Below are positions 28,938-37,979 of a DNA stretch of 64,000 bases, piece by piece. The notes beneath the pieces were generated by a model, which made no database searches, was not told the origin of the DNA, and saw only the letters and a list, made by a program, of their open reading frames with translations. This stretch comes from Micromonospora lupini (GTDB taxonomy: Bacteria; Actinomycetota; Actinomycetes; Mycobacteriales; Micromonosporaceae), in contig NZ_JAPENL010000002.1 in assembly GCF_026342015.1 (NCBI RefSeq), forward strand, positions 687,001 through 751,000, given 5' to 3'. Position 1 is the stretch's first letter; the number at the start of each line of letters is the position of its first letter. Both the position numbers and the translations under genes were made by a program.

Positions 28938-28999
28938 GCCCACCGACCCGACCGGCCACTCAGGCTTCGCAACCCTTGTGGTGCGGGTCGGGGTGGGCG

Positions 29000-29614
29000 T
29001 CAGTCGTAAAGGGCCGACACCCACAGATGGGTCAACGTGTCGACCAGCCGATTCCGATCATCGAACGGCGGCACCCCGCACGCGGCCAGGTAGTAGAGCC
29101 GTTCGCCGGCCCACGTCAGCGATGCGGCGAGCGCATGCACGTCGACGCCGTCGAGCCGGGCCTTGACGGCGGGCTTGGCCTGCCGCTCGGCCTCGATCCG
29201 GGTGACCGCGGCGTCGGTGAACGTCGCCATCTGGGTCAGCCACAGCTCGCGTAGCTGCGGGTCGGACGCCCAGCTCTCCACGATGGCGCGCAACACCGCC
29301 GCGTTGGACAGCCACAGCTCGGCGCCCGCGTCGACACCCGCCCGCAGGGCCTCGTGCGGGCTGGACCTGCCCTGCACCCACGGCTGCGCGGCCTCGTGGC
29401 CGGCGCCGACCGCGCGACGCACCAGCTCGGCCAACGCCGCCTGCCTGCCCGCGAAATAGAAGTAGAAGCTCGCCCGAGAGACCCCGGCGGCCGCGATGAT
29501 CTCGGCAACGCTGAGCGTGTCGAAGGTGCGCTCACGCAGCAGTTCGTGCAGTGCGTCGAGGATGCGTTCGCGCAGCTCGACATCGTTTCGCGGAGGTTCG
29601 TCACGTCGGGCCAT
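29000..29614 (-). CDS. TetR family transcriptional repressor
   Basis: 204 residues. An N-terminal TetR helix-turn-helix (VAEIIAAAGVSRASFYFYFAG, about 35-55) is followed by an all-helical ligand domain with WASDPQLRELWLTQM, as in the EthR-like TetR_C group. It is divergent from the VOC/aldo-keto reductase operon across only 66 bp and so probably represses it and itself. The ATG at 29614 is used; a GTG one codon earlier is also possible. Confidence 0.9.
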   Translation of the reverse strand: MARRDEPPRNDVELRERILDALHELLRERTFDTLSVAEIIAAAGVSRASFYFYFAGRQAALAELVRRAVGAGHEAAQPWVQGRSSPHEALRAGVDAGAELWLSNAAVLRAIVESWASDPQLRELWLTQMATFTDAAVTRIEAERQAKPAVKARLDGVDVHALAASLTWAGERLYYLAACGVPPFDDRNRLVDTLTHLWVSALYD

Positions 29615-29680
29615 CACGGCTCACAGCCTACCGTACGTACCATCTGGACGGCGTGACCAGACAGGATGTATGGTCGATGC
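29615..29680. promoter_or_regulatory. Divergent promoter region of TetR and VOC operon
   Basis: 66-bp spacer between the TetR start and the VOC start. It contains the palindrome gtacgtac (29633-29640) and nearby ctgg/ccag half-sites, suitable for TetR binding, but no single long operator stands out. Confidence 0.4.
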
Positions 29681-30112
29681 ATGACACAGATCGCTGTCCA
29701 TCTCGTGGTGAACGATCCCGACGCCGCGGCCATCTGGTACACGGAGGTGCTCGGCGCTCGGGAGATCAGTCGCGTTCCGCGGCCTGACGGCCGCCCGCTC
29801 ACCGTGGAGCTGCGGGTGGGTGACACCGTGCTCGCCGTGGCGGGCGAATGGCCGGACCGTGGTCTGCGCACGCCGACGGCCCTGGGCGGCAGCCCGGCCG
29901 CCTTCCAGCTGCCGGTATCCGACGTCGACGCCGCCTATGACCGCGCGATCGCCGCCGGGGCCACCGCGTTCGAGCCGCCGCACGACGCGTTCTGGGGCGA
30001 CCGCACCGCACAGTTCCTCGACCCGTCCGGGCACCGCTGGGCCATCAACCGGCACCTGCGCGACGTCCCCGCCGACGAGATGGCCGAGCACGTGGCGGCG
30101 ATGTTCGCATGA
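29681..30112 (+). CDS. VOC family (glyoxalase-like) protein
   Basis: 143 residues with two beta-alpha-beta-beta-beta modules of the vicinal oxygen chelate fold: IAVHLVVNDPDAAAIWYTEVLGA at the start and DVDAAYDRAIAAGATAFEPP in the second half, ending DPSGHRWAINRH. It resembles PhnB/YdfO-like members that often act on small electrophiles or confer resistance. The gene overlaps the downstream reductase start (ATGA), so the two are coupled and share control by the divergent TetR. Substrate is unknown. Confidence 0.88.
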   Translation: MTQIAVHLVVNDPDAAAIWYTEVLGAREISRVPRPDGRPLTVELRVGDTVLAVAGEWPDRGLRTPTALGGSPAAFQLPVSDVDAAYDRAIAAGATAFEPPHDAFWGDRTAQFLDPSGHRWAINRHLRDVPADEMAEHVAAMFA

Positions 30113-31104
30113 GGCACACGACTTTCGGGCGCACCGGCCTGCGGGTGTCCGAGCTGGTGCTCGGTGCCATGACGTTCGGTGAGCAGGGGGGCGTCGGCGC
30201 GCCGATCGAGGAGTGCAAGCGCATCCTCGACGCCTACGCCGAGGCCGGCGGGAATGCCATCGACACCGCCATCAACTACCGCGGCGGCGCCAGCGAGGAG
30301 ATCCTCGGCGAGCTACTGGTCGGCCGGCGCGACAGGTTCGTCGTGGCCACGAAGTACACGGTGACCCGGGACCCGGCTGACCCCAATGGCGGCGGCAACC
30401 ACCGCAAGAATCTCAGGCTGTCGCTGGAAACCAGCCTGCGCCGGCTGCGCACCGACCACATCGACATCTACTGGGTGCACATCTGGGACCGGCACACACC
30501 GATCGACGAAACCATGCGGGCGCTCGACGACGCAGTCACCGCCGGAAAGGTTCTCTACATCGGCGTCTCGGACACACCGGCCTGGGTCGTCTCCCGCGCG
30601 AACACGCTGGCCGAGTGGCGCGGCTGGACTGCGTTCGCCGGCCTCCAGGTGCCCTACAGCCTGATCAACCGCGACGCCGAGCGGGAGTTGATACCGATGG
30701 CCGAGGCGTACGGCCTGGCGGTGACGGCCTGGAGCCCGCTCGGCGGCGGTGTGCTGTCCGGTAAGTACGGCACCGCTGCGCCGGGCGAAAGGACGCGCCT
30801 GAACCGGGACGCGATCAGCGACCGGGACCTCGGTGTGGCCCGGGTCGTACAGGACGTGGCTGGCGAACTGGGCGTCACCCCTGCTCAGGTCGCTCTCGCG
30901 TGGACCCGCCGACGCGACGGCGTGCTGCCGATCATCGGCGCGCGGACCCTCGACCAACTGCGGGACAACCTGGGCTGCACAGCGGTCACGCTGCCGCCAG
31001 AACTGGTGACGCGCCTGGAAGCGGCAACCGACTTCGACCTCGGCTTCCCGGCTGACTTCATCGCCCAGACCACGCCCTGGGTTCTCGGCGCCGCCGCACT
31101 CTGA
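30109..31104 (+). CDS. Aldo/keto reductase
   Basis: 331 residues, full-length AKR TIM barrel. Catalytic tetrad: Asp and Tyr in DTAINYRGG (near residues 45-51), Lys in VVATKYT and His in YWVHIWD. The NADPH-binding end reads LPIIGARTLDQLRDNL. It belongs to the AKR11/YajO-like group and reduces aldehydes or ketones. Start overlaps the VOC stop. With VOC and TetR it looks like an inducible carbonyl-detoxification module; that role is inferred. Confidence 0.92.
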   Translation: MRHTTFGRTGLRVSELVLGAMTFGEQGGVGAPIEECKRILDAYAEAGGNAIDTAINYRGGASEEILGELLVGRRDRFVVATKYTVTRDPADPNGGGNHRKNLRLSLETSLRRLRTDHIDIYWVHIWDRHTPIDETMRALDDAVTAGKVLYIGVSDTPAWVVSRANTLAEWRGWTAFAGLQVPYSLINRDAERELIPMAEAYGLAVTAWSPLGGGVLSGKYGTAAPGERTRLNRDAISDRDLGVARVVQDVAGELGVTPAQVALAWTRRRDGVLPIIGARTLDQLRDNLGCTAVTLPPELVTRLEAATDFDLGFPADFIAQTTPWVLGAAAL

Positions 31105-31179
31105 CCCTCGGCGGATGCCGGGGCGGTCATCTGCTGGACGGCGACGGCGGCGCTCGTCTTCGCAGGTGGATGACGCCCG

Positions 31180-31407
31180 TCAGCGCGTCCACGCCACGAA
31201 CCGCTCGTACAACTCGGCCGGCGCCACCTCGGGCAACTCCGCGACGACGACGAAGAGCAGCCCACCGACGTACATGGAAAGGCCGATGCGGTCCCGCCCG
31301 TACGCCTCGGCAAGGCGCACCCGCGCGGGATGGCACGGCCAGGGCGTGTCCGGCGCACACATCTGACAGTGCCACTGCGGCCGGCGTGGCAGGTGCTCCC
31401 CGTTCAT
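31180..31407 (-). CDS. Small Cys-containing hypothetical protein paired with XRE regulator
   Basis: 75 residues. The centre has WHCQMC followed by PDTPWPC, three closely spaced cysteines that could bind a metal or form a disulfide, then RVRLAEAYGRDRIGLSMYVG and a C-terminus ELYERFVAWTR. Small proteins with this ending are found next to XRE regulators in many Streptomyces and Micromonospora genomes, from memory. The ATG at 31407 begins the conserved part. It diverges from the XRE regulator across 166 bp and is the likely partner or target of that regulator. Confidence 0.6.
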   Translation of the reverse strand: MNGEHLPRRPQWHCQMCAPDTPWPCHPARVRLAEAYGRDRIGLSMYVGGLLFVVVAELPEVAPAELYERFVAWTR

Positions 31408-31573
31408 CCGGAAATCCCGAGCTTGAACCGCTCCCGAACCTCCACCACGCCTCCCACCGTCACTGCGCGTGCTCGTCCGATACACCGTGCGGCGGTACGC
31501 TCACATCGGTCGACGGGTTGCGCGTTGCCAACCCGCACCGGCAACCCGGCAACCCCGGCGGGAGGCGCGAGAG

Positions 31574-32743
31574 ATGCCAACGTTCGGTGCCCGAATGCGG
31601 ACAGCGCGGGAGGCGCGCGGGCTCAGCCTGGCCGCTCTCGCCGAGCTGCTGCCCGCCGACAAGGGGCACCTCTCCCGACTTGAAAACGGCCGCCGCCGAC
31701 CCGGCGAGGATCTGGCCCGCCGGATCGACGACGTCCTCGCCGCTCGCGGGGAGCTGATCGCCTGCGCCGCCCTGGATGTCGCCGCCGCCACCGACACCCG
31801 GCCGTCGGAGACCGTCGACCTGCTGCATCGCATGCATGCCAGCGACACCGCCCCCGCCACCATCGAGACGTTGCAGGCGACCGTGACCGAGCTGTGCTGC
31901 CAGTACGGGTGGCGCGACGCCTGGGATCTGCGTGCCGAAGGTCAGGGTTGGCTGCGTGAGGTCGCCCGGCTGCTCCAGCGACCCACCGGGCTACGGCAGC
32001 ACCGCGAACTGCTTGTGTGCGCGGGCTGGCTGGCACTGCTGATCGGCTGTGTCGAGTACGACCTCGGCATGCGCGCCAGCGCCGAGGCCACCCGCACTGC
32101 CGCCCGCCAGCTCGGTGACGAAGCCGGTCACGCTGGCATCACCGGATGGGCGTGGGAGATGACGGCCTGGTTCGCACTCACCCAGTCCCGGCACGAGGCG
32201 GCGCTGACCGCCGCTCGATCTGGCCAGGAGGCCGCAGGTCGGCAGCGGGTGGGGGTGCAACTGATCGCGCAGGAAGCCAAGGCGCTGGCACGCCTCGGCG
32301 ACCTCCAGGGCGCGCGGACGGCGCTCGATCGAGGTCGGCGGCTACTCGACGACCTCGGTACGCCGGACCGGCCCGACAACCACTTCGAGGTCGATCCCGG
32401 CAAATGGCTGTTCTACGCGATGGACGCCTACCGCCTCGCCGAACACGACACTCTCGCCGAGCACTACGCCCACGAGGTTCTGCGTCTCGGCACCGGCTCG
32501 GACGGCATCGAGCGGTCACCCATGCGGATGGCCGAAGCCCGACTCACTCTCGCCGCCACCGCCCTGCGCGCTGGCGAGCTGGATCGGGCCGTCGAACAGG
32601 GAGCGGTGGCGTTCGCCGCTACGCGCCGATCCCTGCCCTCGCTGCTGCTCGTCGCCGGTGAGGTTGACGTCGAACTTCACAGGCGCTATCCCCAGGAACA
32701 GGCCACCGCCGACTTCCGGGACGCGCTGAACGCGATTCGGTAG
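31574..32743 (+). CDS. XRE family helix-turn-helix regulator
   Basis: 389 residues. Residues about 5-60 are a Cro/C1-type helix-turn-helix (MRTAREARGLSLAALAELL, KGHLSRLENGRRRPG). The remaining 320 residues are all helical, resembling TPR-like solenoids found in large actinobacterial XRE regulators (QSRHEAALTAARSGQEAAG, LQGARTALDRGRRLLDDLG). Start at 31574 follows a ggaggcgcgagag ribosome site. Divergent from the small Cys-containing gene, it likely controls it; the solenoid may sense a protein or peptide partner. Confidence 0.85.
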   Translation: MPTFGARMRTAREARGLSLAALAELLPADKGHLSRLENGRRRPGEDLARRIDDVLAARGELIACAALDVAAATDTRPSETVDLLHRMHASDTAPATIETLQATVTELCCQYGWRDAWDLRAEGQGWLREVARLLQRPTGLRQHRELLVCAGWLALLIGCVEYDLGMRASAEATRTAARQLGDEAGHAGITGWAWEMTAWFALTQSRHEAALTAARSGQEAAGRQRVGVQLIAQEAKALARLGDLQGARTALDRGRRLLDDLGTPDRPDNHFEVDPGKWLFYAMDAYRLAEHDTLAEHYAHEVLRLGTGSDGIERSPMRMAEARLTLAATALRAGELDRAVEQGAVAFAATRRSLPSLLLVAGEVDVELHRRYPQEQATADFRDALNAIR

Positions 32744-32785
32744 CAAGTACGGGCATGCCCGCCATGATCACCAAGATCGGGTTCT

Positions 32786-33262
32786 TCATCCGTAGAGGTA
32801 CTCGTCCACGTCCAGTTCCGCCCGCGTGCGCCGGAGGAATTCCAGCACCCGGGCGTCCAGGTGCCAGCCCAGCAACTGGTGCTGCCCCGGGAGCTTCTGC
32901 ATCCCGTCGACGGGGCCGGCCAGGTCTTCCTCCTCGCCGTCCGGGTGCTCGAACACTCGCACGACCTGCAGGACGCTGGCACCGGACGCCTCATCAACGC
33001 GGTCCAGTTCGGCGGCGAGTTCCCCGATCCGCCCGGCGTGGGTGAACAGCCGATCCACGATCTGCGCGATCTGCTCGTCCACGCCAAGTCCGGGCTTCCG
33101 GCACGCGATCTTCCACCGATGAGTGGCGGGCCGAGCCGGGTCGACCTGGCGACTGCCACGAACGACCACCTCGTCGGGCTCGATGCCCAACCGGGCGGTG
33201 ATCTCGGCCGCTGGCACCCGAACCGAGGACAGCGCGAAGTACGCGTACTGGGAGACGAGCAT
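32786..33262 (-). CDS. DUF4279 family protein
   Basis: 158 residues matching the DUF4279 pattern: an opening of alternating strands (YAYFALSSVRVPAAEITARLGIEPDEVVVRG), then THRWKI, a helical DEQIAQIVDRLF region, and the FEHPDGEEEDL...LGWHLDARVLEFL end. DUF4279 proteins are small stand-alone proteins often found among polymorphic-toxin immunity genes, but no toxin is visible here. Its stop is 43 bp from the convergent XRE gene. ATG 33262 is preferred over GTG 33280. Confidence 0.7.
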   Translation of the reverse strand: MLVSQYAYFALSSVRVPAAEITARLGIEPDEVVVRGSRQVDPARPATHRWKIACRKPGLGVDEQIAQIVDRLFTHAGRIGELAAELDRVDEASGASVLQVVRVFEHPDGEEEDLAGPVDGMQKLPGQHQLLGWHLDARVLEFLRRTRAELDVDEYLYG

Positions 33263-33381
33263 GGCGGGCACTGTACCCACGAGGACATCGCCAGCGGCCG
33301 AAGAAGCAGGTCAGGCCTCACGCCGTGCTCCCGGCGTCCAGCTACCCAGGCCGCCGACCAGGTCGAACTAGCCTCATCGTC

Positions 33382-33960
33382 ATGCCGCACCTGGACGCCG
33401 CCGATCCCCTGCCGCGCCGTCCCCGACGCGTCCTCGTCGCCGGGACCTCGGGCGCCGGAAAGACGACCCTCGCCTCCCGCATCGCCACGTCGTTGCAGGC
33501 GCCGCACGTCGAGATCGACGGCCTCTTCCACGGACCGTCGTGGACCAGACGTCCGTCCTTCGAAGACGACGTACGCCTCTTCAGCGCAGGCCCCTCCTGG
33601 GTGACCGAGTGGCAGTACGGGGTGGTCCGCGACCACCTCGCCGACCTCGCCGACCTGGTGGTGTGGCTGGATCTGCCGAAGATCACCGTCATGCGCCAGG
33701 TCGTCCGGCGGACCGTCGTACGCCGCCTTCGACGCCAACGGCTCTGGAACGGCAACGTCGAACCGCCACTCTGGACCCTGCTCACCGACCCCGAGCACAT
33801 CGTCCGCTGGGCGTGGAACACGCATCCTCGGACGGCCACGCGTATCGAGGCCCTGGCGGTCCGACGTCCGGACCTTCCCGTGGTCCGCCTCCGCAGTCAC
33901 ACCGCCGCCGATCGCTGGCTAGCGGGCCCGCTGAAGCAGGCTCAAGGCACTATGGAGTAA
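33382..33960 (+). CDS. P-loop kinase, adenylate-kinase/FLAP-like
   Basis: 192 residues. Walker A GTSGAGKTTLASRI near residue 21, then HVEIDGLFHGPSW and a VVWLDLP strand, the pattern of the small AAA-18/topology-modulation (FLAR/FLAP) family related to shikimate and adenylate kinases. The RRTVVRRLRRQRLWNGN stretch is the Arg-rich lid found in this family. The substrate is not known; members are thought to phosphorylate nucleotides or small metabolites. Lone gene, convergent with the next. Confidence 0.82.
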   Translation: MPHLDAADPLPRRPRRVLVAGTSGAGKTTLASRIATSLQAPHVEIDGLFHGPSWTRRPSFEDDVRLFSAGPSWVTEWQYGVVRDHLADLADLVVWLDLPKITVMRQVVRRTVVRRLRRQRLWNGNVEPPLWTLLTDPEHIVRWAWNTHPRTATRIEALAVRRPDLPVVRLRSHTAADRWLAGPLKQAQGTME

Positions 33961-33965
33961 GCGCG

Positions 33966-34616
33966 CTAAAGGCTGGTCGGTGAGGCCACGACCAGTTCGG
34001 TGTCCGGGTCGTGGTCGATCCGCGACGGGCCGGCGACGATCAGGGTGGCTCGGGACCACGGTCGTTCGCGCAGCATGAAGGGCAGTTCCTCCCGGAGCCA
34101 GTTCGTCACGTGCTCCTGCTGCTCGGGAGAGTCGCCGTCACGAGCGACCAGCAACCGCTCCTGCTCATCAAGATCGCCCTGTAGATACACCGAGGCGTCC
34201 AACCACGGGCCAAGTTCGTCCCGGATGATGCCCGTACCCTCGACCCAGACGAAATCGGCGCCGGCAGGAACGGTGATCGACCCGGCTCGGTCGTGGCTGA
34301 TCCAGGCATCGGGACGGAAGTCGACCGACTCCCCTCGGTGCAGGGGTTGCAGGATGTTCTCGGCGAGCACGATCCCCCAGTCGAAACAGGCGTGGTTCCA
34401 GGCGACGTCGTCGGTGTGCACGACGGCGGAGTTGGGCTCCGCCTTGCGCAGCCTCTCCGCCAGGGTCGTCTTACCTGCACCACCGCGGCCGTCGATCGCG
34501 ATCACCCGCGGGCGCCCGGTGACACCTGGTGATGCGTCGCGTAGCTGCCGGACGGCGTCGGAAACCGTCACCACTCGCCAGCCAACGGCTTCGGTCTCAC
34601 CGGGATGTAGGCGCAT
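33966..34616 (-). CDS. Uridine-kinase-like P-loop protein
   Basis: 216 residues. Walker A DGRGGAGKTTLAERL (near residue 42), then VVHTDDVAWNHACFDW, which contains the DD substrate motif of the nucleoside/phosphoribulokinase family, and FVWVEGTGIIRDEL. Similar actinobacterial proteins are annotated as uridine kinase family, often without proven activity. The ATG (MRLHPGETEA) is a cautious start; an in-frame extension to 34748 would enter the promoter of the divergent NUDIX gene. Its stop is five bases from the convergent P-loop gene. Confidence 0.78.
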   Translation of the reverse strand: MRLHPGETEAVGWRVVTVSDAVRQLRDASPGVTGRPRVIAIDGRGGAGKTTLAERLRKAEPNSAVVHTDDVAWNHACFDWGIVLAENILQPLHRGESVDFRPDAWISHDRAGSITVPAGADFVWVEGTGIIRDELGPWLDASVYLQGDLDEQERLLVARDGDSPEQQEHVTNWLREELPFMLRERPWSRATLIVAGPSRIDHDPDTELVVASPTSL

Positions 34617-34691
34617 CGACGGTTCGTACCCCCAGCGCCTGTCGATGATTCCCCGCCGCCGTTTGTCCCACCCCCGTGTTCTACTCCCGTC

Positions 34692-35183
34692 ATGCATGTC
34701 GTTGTCGCAGGCGCGCTCGTCGACAACGACGCGGTCCTGCTGGCGCATCGCAGGCCGACGAAACGGGCGTTCCCCGATGTCTGGGATCTGCCCGGCGGGC
34801 AGGTCGAAGCCGGTGAGTCGGAACTACAAGCCCTCGCGCGTGAGATGCACGAAGAACTCGGTGTGCACATTGTGGCGGCATCCGCTTCCCGGCTGGGCGT
34901 CCTGCATGCCGGCATTGGTGGGGTCGCCCTGCACGTGGGCGTCTGGCAGGTCGCAGAGTGGATCGGCTCTCCGACCAACCGTGCACCTGACGAGCACGAC
35001 GACATCGCCTGGGTCGGGATCAGCGAGCTGGGCGGTCTTCACCTCCCGCATGGCGTCCTGGCGGCGATGGTGCGTTCCCTGCCCGAGTTTGAGTGGGCCC
35101 GTGGGAACTCAGTTGGCACCGACTGCGAACGGGACGACCGAGACGCCAAGGCCGACTGCCGCGCGTGTGCGGAGACGGATTGA
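34692..35183 (+). CDS. NUDIX hydrolase
   Basis: 163 residues with a complete Nudix box, GGQVEAGESELQALAREMHEELGV (about 36-59), matching Gx5Ex7REUxEExGU, within an MutT-like fold (MHVVVAGALVDNDAVLLAHR start). It hydrolyses a nucleoside diphosphate linked to another group. The C-terminal 30 residues after LPEFEW are rich in charged residues and lack family similarity, so they may be an extension created by stop loss. Divergent from the uridine-kinase-like gene across 75 bp. Confidence 0.88.
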   Translation: MHVVVAGALVDNDAVLLAHRRPTKRAFPDVWDLPGGQVEAGESELQALAREMHEELGVHIVAASASRLGVLHAGIGGVALHVGVWQVAEWIGSPTNRAPDEHDDIAWVGISELGGLHLPHGVLAAMVRSLPEFEWARGNSVGTDCERDDRDAKADCRACAETD

Positions 35184-35232
35184 TCGATCTCAGCGAGAGG
35201 CGTGGTCGATCGAACGCGCGTTACCGTGTCCC

Positions 35233-35419
35233 GTGATCGTATGGCTCAACGGCACCCACGGCGTGGGCAAGACGACTACCAGCGCGCTCGTGCAGCAGCT
35301 GCTGCCGGATTCACGGGTGTTCGACGCCGAGAAGGTCGGCGAGACACCTCAAGATGGACGCACTCGATGTTCCCGACCACATCGCCGCGCCAATGACGGA
35401 GCTTCGAGCGCCTCGGTGA
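35233..35419 (+). pseudogene. Internally deleted P-loop (AAA-17-like) kinase gene
   Basis: GTG starts VIVWLNGTHGVGKTTTSALV, a textbook N-terminus of small ATP-binding kinases, and reads to VFDAEKVGE. The frame then fails. In the +1 frame the sequence continues directly as RHLKMDALDVPDHIAAPM and ends LRAPR-stop, which looks like the C-terminal tail of the same family. The roughly 120 middle residues normally between these ends are missing. The gene is therefore a remnant with an internal deletion that also shifted frame. Confidence 0.7.
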
Positions 35420-35460
35420 CACGGCTCCATCTCGATGCGCCCATGGATTTAGTCACTCAG

Positions 35461-35817
35461 CTAGATCGCGCCGTCCTCCACCTTGCTAAGCATCACGTCG
35501 ACGTCACCGGATCGGATCATCTCTCCCAGGGCCGCCACCATCGCCTCGACACCGGGCCTTGGAACGATGACCAAGTCGGAGCACCAGAAGTACCGACCGC
35601 CACCAGCCTCCCCGGTCCCAGCCCACCTTTGCAGGACGCGACCGATCTCATCCGTCGTCATGAACGTGGCGTAACGATGGGTGCCGTCAGCAAGGTAAAG
35701 GTGCGCATCGATGTTGTCGGCAGTCGCAGGTTCATCGCCCTGGCCGGGCACGAAGCGGACACGAGCGCCCTCGACCATGCGGTCCCATTCCGCCGTCTGA
35801 CTCACGGGAAGCATCAT
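35461..35817 (-). CDS. Hypothetical protein, 118 residues
   Basis: A compact alpha/beta protein: RVRFVPGQGDEPATADNIDAHLYLADGTHRYATFMTTDEIGRVLQRW followed in sequence by YFWCSDLVIVPRPGVEAMV. Order of strands and a helix ending with LGEMIRSGDVDVML resemble small actinobacterial proteins that accompany accessory genes. No family is recognised with certainty. The start codons ATG-ATG at 35817/35814 lack a strong ribosome site. Base composition is less GC-rich than in the flanking core genes. Confidence 0.6.
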   Translation of the reverse strand: MMLPVSQTAEWDRMVEGARVRFVPGQGDEPATADNIDAHLYLADGTHRYATFMTTDEIGRVLQRWAGTGEAGGGRYFWCSDLVIVPRPGVEAMVAALGEMIRSGDVDVMLSKVEDGAI

Positions 35818-36217
35818 CGCAGCTTCGGACGCTCAGCTTGGGAATCGGGTTGATCGTCACTTTCGGTAGACCAACGACCACCATCGCACGGGTCGACAAC
35901 TACAGAGCGTCAGTCTTGCGGCGCTGCTCTCGGTGGTGTTGACCGACCCGCCGCCGCGACCCGCCGCGCGGACCCGGCGTGCCCTTCGCTGCGCCGCGCC
36001 GCTCGGGGCGCGGCCCGACCGGCTGCCGGCCCACGAACACCAACAACCCTCGGCCCCACCGTCTGCGGCGGCCCCGGGCTCACCGCTTCCCGCGCCAGCC
36101 GCCGGGCGTCCTGCGTGGCCGGAGTCGGAGCGCCAGCGGAGCGACGGACGCGCGCCCAGGCGGCGGCGCTTGCGGCCCGTCTCGGGCCGCCTTGAAGACG
36201 TACAGAAACTTTGCACA
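35818..36217. other. Stretch without a recognised gene
   Basis: About 400 bp, extremely GC-rich from roughly 35930 to 36190. Overlapping open frames on both strands are Arg/Pro/Ala-rich and lack ribosome sites, so none is credible. It ends at the direct repeat that bounds the element described next. Confidence 0.6.
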
Positions 36218-36240
36218 ACACCGCCGGCAGTCCGATGTCC

Positions 36241-36286
36241 GGTCTCGGGACCTGCGTGACACATCGGTATCAGGACCTGCGTGACA
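36241..36286 (+). repeat. Left 46-bp terminal inverted repeat
   Basis: Two 21-bp units, 36241-36261 and 36266-36286, both ending acctgcgtgaca, separated by catc. The transposase start lies 21 bp inside. Confidence 0.8.
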
Positions 36287-36307
36287 CTCCGCCGAGTGTT
36301 GGTGGAG

Positions 36308-36700
36308 ATGAGCGTGATGGAACAGCGGTATCGAGCCGTCCAGGACGTGTTTGCCGGATCCACGGTCACGGACGTCGCCGAACGATTCGGGGTCTCCCGT
36401 CAGGCGGTGCATCGCTGGCTGGCCTGGTATGAGCAGGAGGGTCTGGAAGGGCTGGCCGATCGGTCCAGCCGGCCACGTTCCTCGCCTGGGCAGACCCTGC
36501 CGGAGGTGGAGGCGCTGATCTGTGAGCTGCGCCGGAATCATCCTCGCTGGGGTGCCCGTCGCCTGGTCTTCGAACTAGGCCGCCGGGACTGCCCGGGGCC
36601 GGTTCCGTCGCGGATCACGGTGCATCGGGTGCTTATCCGACTCCGCAAACCCGAACCCTCACGCACGGGCCGCACCCCGCAGCACCAGGGTGAGGCTTGA
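36308..36700 (+). pseudogene. Truncated IS481 family transposase (helix-turn-helix part only)
   Basis: 130 residues: MSVMEQRYRAVQDVFAG, helix-turn-helix VTDVAERFGVSRQAVHRWLAWY, the linker LADRSSRPRSSPGQT and the second helical domain (ICELRRNHPRWGARRLVFEL, ITVHRVLIRL). This is the N-terminal DNA-binding half of IS481/IS3-like transposases. The DDE/rve catalytic domain of about 180 residues is absent; the frame stops at 36700 just after the linker. The fragment could still bind the element ends and act as a repressor. Confidence 0.85.
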
Positions 36701-36765
36701 CGCCTCGGCGGTGCCATTCCTAGCTTTGTCGCTCATGAGCTGGAGCAAGAAGACTGGCAGATCAC

Positions 36766-37236
36766 ATGGATAGCATCAGGTTGACGAAGGCGCTCGGCTA
36801 CACCGTCGGCGACCTGCTCCTGATCTCAGCCGAAGCGTTCGACGCGCGGGTCGTCAGGACCACGCCCCAGCGCCTGCTCATCGACTGGCCATGGTGGGAG
36901 GCCGACCCCGAGTCGAACAACTCATGGGACGGCACCGTGGGTTTTCCTCGTGACCCTGATGCTCACGGCTGGCACAACACACCCTGGCGACTGGAGCCCG
37001 ACCCCTCCGAACTTCAAACCGGTGACCCCTGCTTCGTGGGCATCCCACCGACGGAGGTGCGGGTGACCTCCATCGAGAGGTTCGATCCTCCCGCCGACTT
37101 CGGATTCCTACCCCGGCCGGACTACGTGCTTGGGGTGGTTCCTGTCGACACGACCGACGATGACGAAGCGGGCTACGCGCTCTACCTCAACAGTCAAGAG
37201 CCAATCCACATCGAAGTCCTTGCAAACCCCAACTAG
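36766..37236 (+). CDS. Passenger hypothetical protein inside the IS481-like element
   Basis: 156 residues beginning MDSIRLTKALGYTVGDLLL. It is acidic, rich in Trp/Pro/Asp (DWPWWEADPESNN, WHNTPWRLEPDPSEL) and has no transposase motif, helix-turn-helix or membrane segment. The Trp- and Asp-rich beta pattern recalls small immunity-type proteins, but no family can be named with confidence. It starts 65 bp after the transposase fragment and ends 50 bp before the right inverted repeat, so it sits where the catalytic domain of the transposase would be. Confidence 0.6.
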   Translation: MDSIRLTKALGYTVGDLLLISAEAFDARVVRTTPQRLLIDWPWWEADPESNNSWDGTVGFPRDPDAHGWHNTPWRLEPDPSELQTGDPCFVGIPPTEVRVTSIERFDPPADFGFLPRPDYVLGVVPVDTTDDDEAGYALYLNSQEPIHIEVLANPN

Positions 37237-37286
37237 CCAGGGCATGCACAAGCGCTGCCCTGAACGGAAGATCGTCTAGCCGGACG

Positions 37287-37332
37287 TGTCACCCATGTCC
37301 CGAGACTGATCTGTCACGCAGGTCCTGAGACC
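37287..37332 (-). repeat. Right 46-bp terminal inverted repeat
   Basis: Two 21-bp units, 37287-37307 and 37312-37332, separated by gatc. Reverse complement matches the left end at 39 of 46 positions; the outer unit is the better preserved (20 of 21). Confidence 0.8.
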
Positions 37333-37477
37333 CGACACCGCCGGCAGTCCGGCCTGTCCCGTCACGGGAGATGCTTGACGCTCGCGTCCCACCTGATGCC
37401 CGACATGATCCTCAAGGCGCTCGCGGAGGCCTTCACGGTGGGCGACGGTAGGGGCCGCGGTGAGGAACAATGCGCCG

Positions 37478-37867
37478 ATGGACGATCACCGACGCTGTCG
37501 TCTCTTCGTCAGCGACGACGAGCTGGAGCTTGCCGGTCCGCCGGCTGCGCTCCGCGCCCTCAGCCGGCTGCTACGCCATCATGCTGAGCCCTTTGAGGTG
37601 GCGGTCACCGACGGGGCCGTCAGTCAAGAGGCGACTGCAGGCCCGCTGCTCGTCAGTCTGAAAGGCGGGACCAGGCTGCATTTCTCCGGCGGGCGTGAGT
37701 ATCTCGAGATCATCTGGGACGCGCTCGATGGTGTGGCTGAGCAAGCCGAGACCGCCGATGACCGGACCGTCCACCGGCATCAGCACATCGAGTATTTTCC
37801 TGGTGACGACTACCGCTCGCCGGACTCAGTCCCATTGGTCATCGTGTCCGACTGGCCAGAAGCGTAG
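37478..37867 (+). CDS. Imm32-like immunity family protein
   Basis: 129 residues. Features are DDELELAGPPAALRALSRLLRHH at the start, a beta hairpin in the middle and the ending QHIEYFPGDDYRSPDSVPLVIV. The HIEYFP and S-x-PLV motifs are those I associate with the actinobacterial Imm32 immunity family, which protects against polymorphic toxins. No toxin gene is nearby, so it is an orphan, as is common in this family. The ATG at 37478 starts the conserved region. It lies directly beyond the right end of the IS481-like element. Confidence 0.65.
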   Translation: MDDHRRCRLFVSDDELELAGPPAALRALSRLLRHHAEPFEVAVTDGAVSQEATAGPLLVSLKGGTRLHFSGGREYLEIIWDALDGVAEQAETADDRTVHRHQHIEYFPGDDYRSPDSVPLVIVSDWPEA

Positions 37868-37979
37868 GTGCACGACTGGCGTGCGGTGGCACTGACCGTA
37901 ACCAGGGCCACGCGGAGCATGATCATGGTTCTACGGCCCTGGCAGCGGCCTGCTACGCAGGTCAGAGGCTATGCCGCCG

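Follow-up and report, generated by a model that had tools for sequence, protein, structure and literature searches.

The window analysed here, a 64,000-nucleotide stretch of the Micromonospora lupini genome, contains a unit of about 1.1 kb in which ends of the IS481 type enclose the DNA-binding half of a transposase and an unrelated gene. How could such a unit have arisen, can it still move, and does it have counterparts elsewhere? An earlier note, made from the sequence by itself, had proposed that an IS481-like element exchanged its catalytic domain for the unrelated gene and thereby became a non-autonomous carrier of cargo, possibly of an immunity type. Comparison with related loci supports the idea of a non-autonomous cargo carrier and leads to a different origin for the unit.

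The unit with paired doublet ends is real, but its boundaries had to be corrected from 1,092 to 1,102 bp (Table 1). Likewise, the 17-bp direct repeat reported to flank it is exact (36218-36234 and 37335-37351), but is really a 15-bp target-site duplication plus ACA: the right end terminates in ACA, and an ACA in the left flank matches this by chance. Each end is a doublet in which motifs of 21-23 nt are spaced at 25 bp; together, the two ends form an inverted repeat of 55 nt with 84% complementarity (36233-36287 and 37286-37340). Models of these 54-bp ends (nhmmer/Infernal) assign both to one subfamily, A, at 62-66 bits (E 2.8e-17 per genome), and recover 57 distinct paired elements with doublet ends in Micromonosporaceae. 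A target-duplication score of 8 or more is reached by 32 of these 57, most with 15/15, versus 6% of mismatched flank pairs; the 15/15 duplications of related elements are of target sequences unrelated to one another. In view of the E-value and of this excess, the ends of the window element are not chance matches. The target duplication and the existence of many equivalent paired elements rule out an origin of the two ends from separate IS copies. Both open reading frames reported earlier, of 139 and 156 aa, are present, and an Rfam search of the element's region gave no match.

Table 1. Features of the window element and its surroundings (positions in the window)
Feature	Position	Strand	Evidence or remarks
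Landing pad, 3' part of dispersed ~520-bp non-coding repeat	35974..36219	+	3' edge GTACAGAAACTT ends at 36211
Left target-site duplication CCGCCGGCAGTCCGA	36221..36235	.	14/15 vs 37338-37352
Window element	36236-37337		1,102 bp, TGT...ACA; boundaries set from numerous related elements
Left (transposase-side) doublet end, subfamily A	36236..36289	+	nhmmer/Infernal model of ends
139-aa remnant ORF	36281..36700	+	Pfam, NCBIfam, alignment to full-length 612/618-aa transposases
Deletion junction	36641..36642	.	Element 406/407 joins parent 406 to ~1829 (blastn vs L041, L037)
156-aa passenger gene	36766..37236	+	Relatives in Micromonosporaceae, Streptomyces, Embleya
Right (cargo-side) doublet end, subfamily A	37284..37337	-	Inverted-repeat comparison and end model
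Right target-site duplication CCGCCGGCAGTCCGG	37338..37352	.	14/15 vs 36221-36235
Left end of adjacent IS481-type element, subfamily B	37355..37408	+	nhmmer 56-58 bits, E 3.9e-16
Imm32-like gene	37472..37867	+	Pfam PF15566, E 6.9e-15

The search with the ends through Micromonosporaceae for a parent IS and for copies with other cargo, which the earlier note had recommended, was productive on both counts: it returned complete relatives as well as many cassettes. That other elements share the ends and carry different cargo bears out the idea of a non-autonomous cargo unit between IS481-type ends. The complete relatives have the same ends as the window element and combine a transposase with a passenger gene. 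They include a 2,615-bp element with a 618-aa transposase and a 195-aa SUKH-1 gene (L040), one of 2,489 bp with a 612-aa transposase and a 149-aa gene (L041), one of 2,504 bp with a 615-aa transposase and a WapI-type immunity gene (L124, genome G045), and a further complete element (L060). The NCBIfam IS481 model (NF033577, cut-off 224) was applied to the L041 and G045 transposases among these and gave 295-298 bits. Genome G045 holds four identical copies of the 2,504-bp element (L124-L128), three of them at different sites, each with an exact 15-bp duplication, and a fourth with mixed flanks; this element is recently active. The transposase of L041 (2046-3881), like those of L040 and L124, has a C-terminal extension of ~300 residues that can be read as about three diverged repeats (AVEVTR.., IEIERL.., VRVERR..). 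Such an extension is unusual for IS481.

The passenger of the window element is less easily placed. The 156-aa protein has no family in Pfam, NCBIfam or PADLOC, a PDB profile search yielded no credible match, and an AlphaFold2 model from 5 sequences reached a pLDDT of 33; a binding or immunity-type role would be a guess only. Homologues with 84-89% protein identity occur at six Micromonospora loci in IS481-type surroundings, and remoter ones (31-76%) in other Micromonosporaceae genera and in Embleya and Streptomyces records. Values of dN/dS between 0.19 and 0.46, and between 0.22 and 0.46 in pairs that include the window gene, indicate purifying selection on the gene across species. In genome G268 a homologue forms a stand-alone cassette without a transposase (L119 7974-8732, 759 bp, 13/15 flanking duplication), which adjoins a second cassette with a GrpB-family gene.

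These data bear on whether the window element is simply an inert relic, an IS copy in decay that no longer moves and in which neither cassette nor passenger serves a selected function. It is the single A-type element of the 7.35-Mb host genome, in which no full-length transposase of its group was found at E 1e-40 or better; its two target duplications are mismatched at one base, and an adjacent subfamily B element has no recognisable right end. All this would fit decay. Yet the two ends are undamaged, with scores that reach those of the multi-copy G045 element, purifying selection across species acts on an intact passenger ORF, and a homologue of it occupies a stand-alone cassette in G268. We therefore consider an inert relic unlikely, though the idea deserves to be kept in mind. 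Since the host genome has no transposase of the group, mobilisation of the element now would need an incoming one, probably supplied with incoming DNA. Classification as a MITE, short, non-coding and IS-ended, is ruled out by the intact conserved passenger ORF.

The 139-aa ORF joins transposase residues 1-120 (HTH_32, LZ_Tnp_IS481), in frame, with the final residues of the transposase and a tail. It scores 96.9 bits against the NCBIfam cut-off of 224 and is without a DDE domain, so the window element does not encode a functional transposase. The blastn alignments locate the junction: positions 1-406 of the element match 1-406 of L041 (90%), positions 407-428 match 1829-1850 of L041, which are the last transposase codons (FKVRKPEPSR), and positions 407-1102 match L037 (92%). 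The missing stretch is ~1,422 bp or 474 codons, and hence the frame is kept across the junction. In L037, from Micromonospora chalcea, a C-terminal transposase piece (residues 531-602) lies ahead of the same 156-aa gene, and in G194 (L115) the same passenger comes after transposase residues 311-611, which makes this a complementary derivative. Because the window element and the L037 and G194 derivatives complement each other, a parent with a full transposase and the 156-aa passenger is implied; an intact parent bearing exactly this passenger was not found among 355 family genomes, and we infer it from the complementary derivatives.

The DNA-binding fragment might have been kept for a purpose, namely to repress or titrate transposition or to act in targeting, instead of being a by-product of the deletion. 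The preserved frame makes a repressor role possible: the deletion is in frame and no stop arose. There is also no excess of replacement changes (in a three-way comparison the window branch has a pN of ~0.023 vs a pS of ~0.165), and cassette L047 retains an 83-aa fragment. However, random deletions are in frame one third of the time, the low dN/dS comes mostly from the time before the deletion, and the fragment is completely gone in most cassettes. A retained function of this kind is improbable in our judgement.

The domain swap proposed earlier, in which recombination would have replaced the catalytic domain of a ~1.1-kb IS481 element by an unrelated gene, would explain why the whole unit is about as long as a short IS481 element and why the fragment stops after the DNA-binding half. 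It does not agree with the intact relatives, which are 2.4-2.6 kb long with a passenger already downstream of a complete transposase, nor with the last transposase codons at the window junction and the C-terminal remnants that precede the same gene in relatives. An internal deletion that kept the frame removed the DDE part, the resemblance in length to a normal IS481 is a coincidence given an intact parent of ~2.5 kb, and a swap is highly improbable.

In view of the above, the window element is very probably an internal-deletion derivative of a passenger-carrying IS481-family IS, and thereby a non-autonomous cassette that is predicted to be mobilisable in trans. The parent would have consisted of a doublet end, a DDE transposase of ~610 aa, the 156-aa passenger gene and a second doublet end. 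It would have inserted beside a conserved landing-pad repeat, producing the 15-bp target duplication, and later have lost ~1,422 bp of its transposase gene in frame, DDE domain included; insertion followed by deletion is the order that we infer. Both ends would remain, together with an intact passenger gene and the DNA-binding fragment of 139 aa. Such a cassette would not move by itself, but should do so in trans when a full-length transposase recognises the same ends.

The B-type left end begins 17 bp past the first element and, as mentioned, no right end belonging to it was recognised. The Imm32-like gene lies beyond this left end at 37355, which is of a different subfamily, and the earlier suggestion that it hints at immunity-type cargo in the first element is thus not upheld. 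The Imm32-like gene is probably cargo of the adjacent B-type element; in G250, an 87% homologue lies immediately within an end of the C/D type. From ~37,976 onward, a Smr-domain gene is syntenic across the genus. In G252 (L186) this gene directly follows the gene at 28,949, with the flanks ~28 bp apart, so the stretch 28,949-37,976 of the window (29-38 kb) is a variable island; in other species the site has different content, including IS481-type ends. Among orthologous loci lacking the element no clean empty site was found, since the whole stretch is variable and missing in G252. A related empty site is offered by L091, where a related pad repeat is accompanied by a single copy of CGCCGGCAGTCCGG.

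How general this organisation is can be judged from the 57 elements. Among them, full-length IS481-type transposases are confined to six elements; another has a frameshifted copy, and the window element and L047 have N-terminal pieces. Nearly all remaining elements carry one ORF of about 120-430 aa, and in a few, other ISs (IS110, IS256, IS4 and IS5 types) have inserted themselves. Single-linkage clustering gives 48 protein groups, which include the transposases and a few minor ORFs and thus correspond to ~40 cargo families. Recognised immunity and DUF families are SUKH-1, SUKH-4, WapI-type immunity, DUF1877, DUF4259, DUF4262, DUF6188 and DUF6928. Other recognised cargo comprises LtrA (9 members), GrpB, GNAT, NUDIX, adenylate kinase-like, GyrI/Cass2-like, Sel1, TPR and TIR-NB-ARC-TPR proteins, and many cargo proteins are without a recognised family. 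Immunity families recur among the cargo of the mapped cassettes. PADLOC, run on 37 cargos, returned one candidate-system match (PDC-S07, E 8e-19) and weak TIR/SEFIR matches, most likely to the TIR-NB-ARC protein; with such sparse matches the cassettes are not a defence-only set.

Two types of cargo may be mentioned separately. LtrA-family membrane proteins are found in nine cassettes with ends of at least two subfamilies (L044, L085, L115, L117, L118, L129, L130, L137), which suggests exchange of this cargo between end types. At L058 (2009-4724) ends of the family surround a 695-aa TIR-NB-ARC-TPR protein, a possible defence gene, and there is no target duplication.

Transposase 5' sequence past the 54-bp end is kept in 6 of the 50 transposase-less elements. 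These form a graded series with 82-406 bp of transposase-side sequence from the left end (the window element, L047, L058, L045, L054 and L055), and L098 gives a seventh, marginal match (E 6e-4). As some cassettes clearly retain transposase remnants, a deletion of this kind must have produced at least part of the family. The series suggests that cassettes originate from autonomous elements; transposase deletion in passenger-carrying parents would be the route. A-type ends are present, by DNA match, in 24 of 44 sampled genera of Micromonosporaceae; a search of 246 genomes of the phylum (host and G003 included) for such ends outside this family found none besides those of the host.

Many ends lie close together. 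Of the 183 unique ends, 66 face another end within 40 bp; facing ends usually flank a single 14-17-bp target copy, and different subfamilies stand end to end. Since some of the loci had been selected because they contained ends, arrays or the repeat, none of the fractions given here is a genome-wide rate. A GCCGGC-N-GCCGGC-like target occurs at 54% of ends (null 5%), and a motif GTACAGAAA[GC]T[TC] is found near 31 of the 183, with the ends downstream of it. The distance from this motif is 23-27 bp for 30 of the 31 ends and exactly 24 bp for 18, regardless of the duplicated sequence. We suggest that a new copy would tend to insert directly beside an existing end, giving a tandem array with one shared 15-bp repeat, and that insertion next to an end would re-create the target for further growth of the array. 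At four loci tandem neighbours are only 2 bp apart and not ~15 (L098 799/802, L117 4014/4017, L120 3989/3992, L116 3662/3665), and a second joining route may exist. Several elements, possibly fossils, show no duplication.

A GC-rich hairpin precedes the motif, at the 3' edge of non-coding repeats that belong to three or more families. The window element lies 24 bp beyond such an edge, that of a ~520-bp repeat which is composite: its 5' part is palindromic, and its 3' part ends in GCGGCCC..GGGCCGC-CTTGA..GTACAGAAAGTT. This repeat occurs in 60 of 61 Micromonospora genomes, in several copies each; besides the partial copy in the window (35974-36219), examples are L042 1476-2000 and L084-L113. The same 3' hairpin end recurs in two or more further repeat families. 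A gene common to the regions upstream of the pads was not found. We also considered whether the ~520-bp repeat stands for the paired ends of a longer cargo element, and rejected this after 20 loci yielded one doubtful pair only. Tandem arrays of one-gene units with an integron-like cargo spectrum and a fixed insertion point could also point to integron-type gene cassettes or another site-specific recombinase system, but inverted ends, 15-bp duplications of many unrelated sequences and the DDE transposase of complete members are characteristic of transposition, not of attC x attI recombination, and make this option scarcely credible.

It remains to compare the elements with known systems. The complete members agree with the IS481 family in that the two transposases tested pass the NCBI IS481 cut-off, in their TGT...ACA inverted ends, and in 15-bp duplications that fall within the reported 2-15 bp (PMC10045372). 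They differ in being ~2.5 kb long (2.4-2.6 kb) where about 1-1.2 kb and one gene are usual, and in their doublet ends, passenger gene and ~300-residue repeat extension; moreover, most elements with these ends are without a transposase. Transporter ISs (tIS) carry passengers beside the transposase, and mobile insertion cassettes (MICs) consist of IS ends around non-transposase genes, have no transposase and are activatable by a cognate one (PMC3129680). L040, L041 and L124, with a transposase and an unrelated passenger between IS ends, correspond to the former. The window element corresponds in structure to the latter: its ends are those of the autonomous L040, L041 and L124, its own functional transposase is absent, and its duplication is 14/15.

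Two other systems share features. TnRErm46/ISRe46 of Rhodococcus equi is likewise a case of an actinobacterial IS481-family transposase moving passenger genes, here including erm(46), but it is a 6.9-kb autonomous transposon with a 6-bp NCTAGN duplication and a short transposase (333 residues compared), and it has no single-gene cassettes or arrays (PMC6794481). IS1202-family elements of the ISAjo2 type also insert at a short fixed distance from a conserved chromosomal site and are linked to gene modules, whereas their simple ends of 24-26 bp, 5-bp duplication, 441-457-aa transposase and dif targets (PMC10132070) contrast with the 54-bp doublet ends and 15-bp duplications found here.

The likeness to integron cassettes, small, diverse, mostly one-gene units in arrays, is an analogy only, in view of the inverted ends, target duplications and DDE transposase. 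Within that analogy, Micromonosporaceae might possess a transposase-driven counterpart of integrons, in which IS481-type subfamilies package single genes, often of an immunity type, by deleting the transposase and stack them in arrays at ends and pads; we put this forward tentatively, with slightly less than even confidence. In the open-access literature we found no description of family-wide single-gene IS481 cassettes, their arrays or the landing-pad rule, and no paper linking Micromonospora, IS481 and insertion sequences, or IS481 and immunity proteins. Cassettes moved by IS transposases are already known; the scale, the arrays and the landing pad appear to be new. IS-borne gene cassettes have been known mainly as single cases, such as the qnr cassettes and MIC231, which is reportedly an example of a mobile insertion cassette. 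Here, dozens of different single genes are carried across a bacterial family on one family of ends, with several end subfamilies coexisting, in tandem arrays that share a 15-bp repeat and at a constant spacing from the edge of a conserved repeat. This could provide an integron-free route by which actinobacteria, important for natural products, package, move and stockpile accessory genes.
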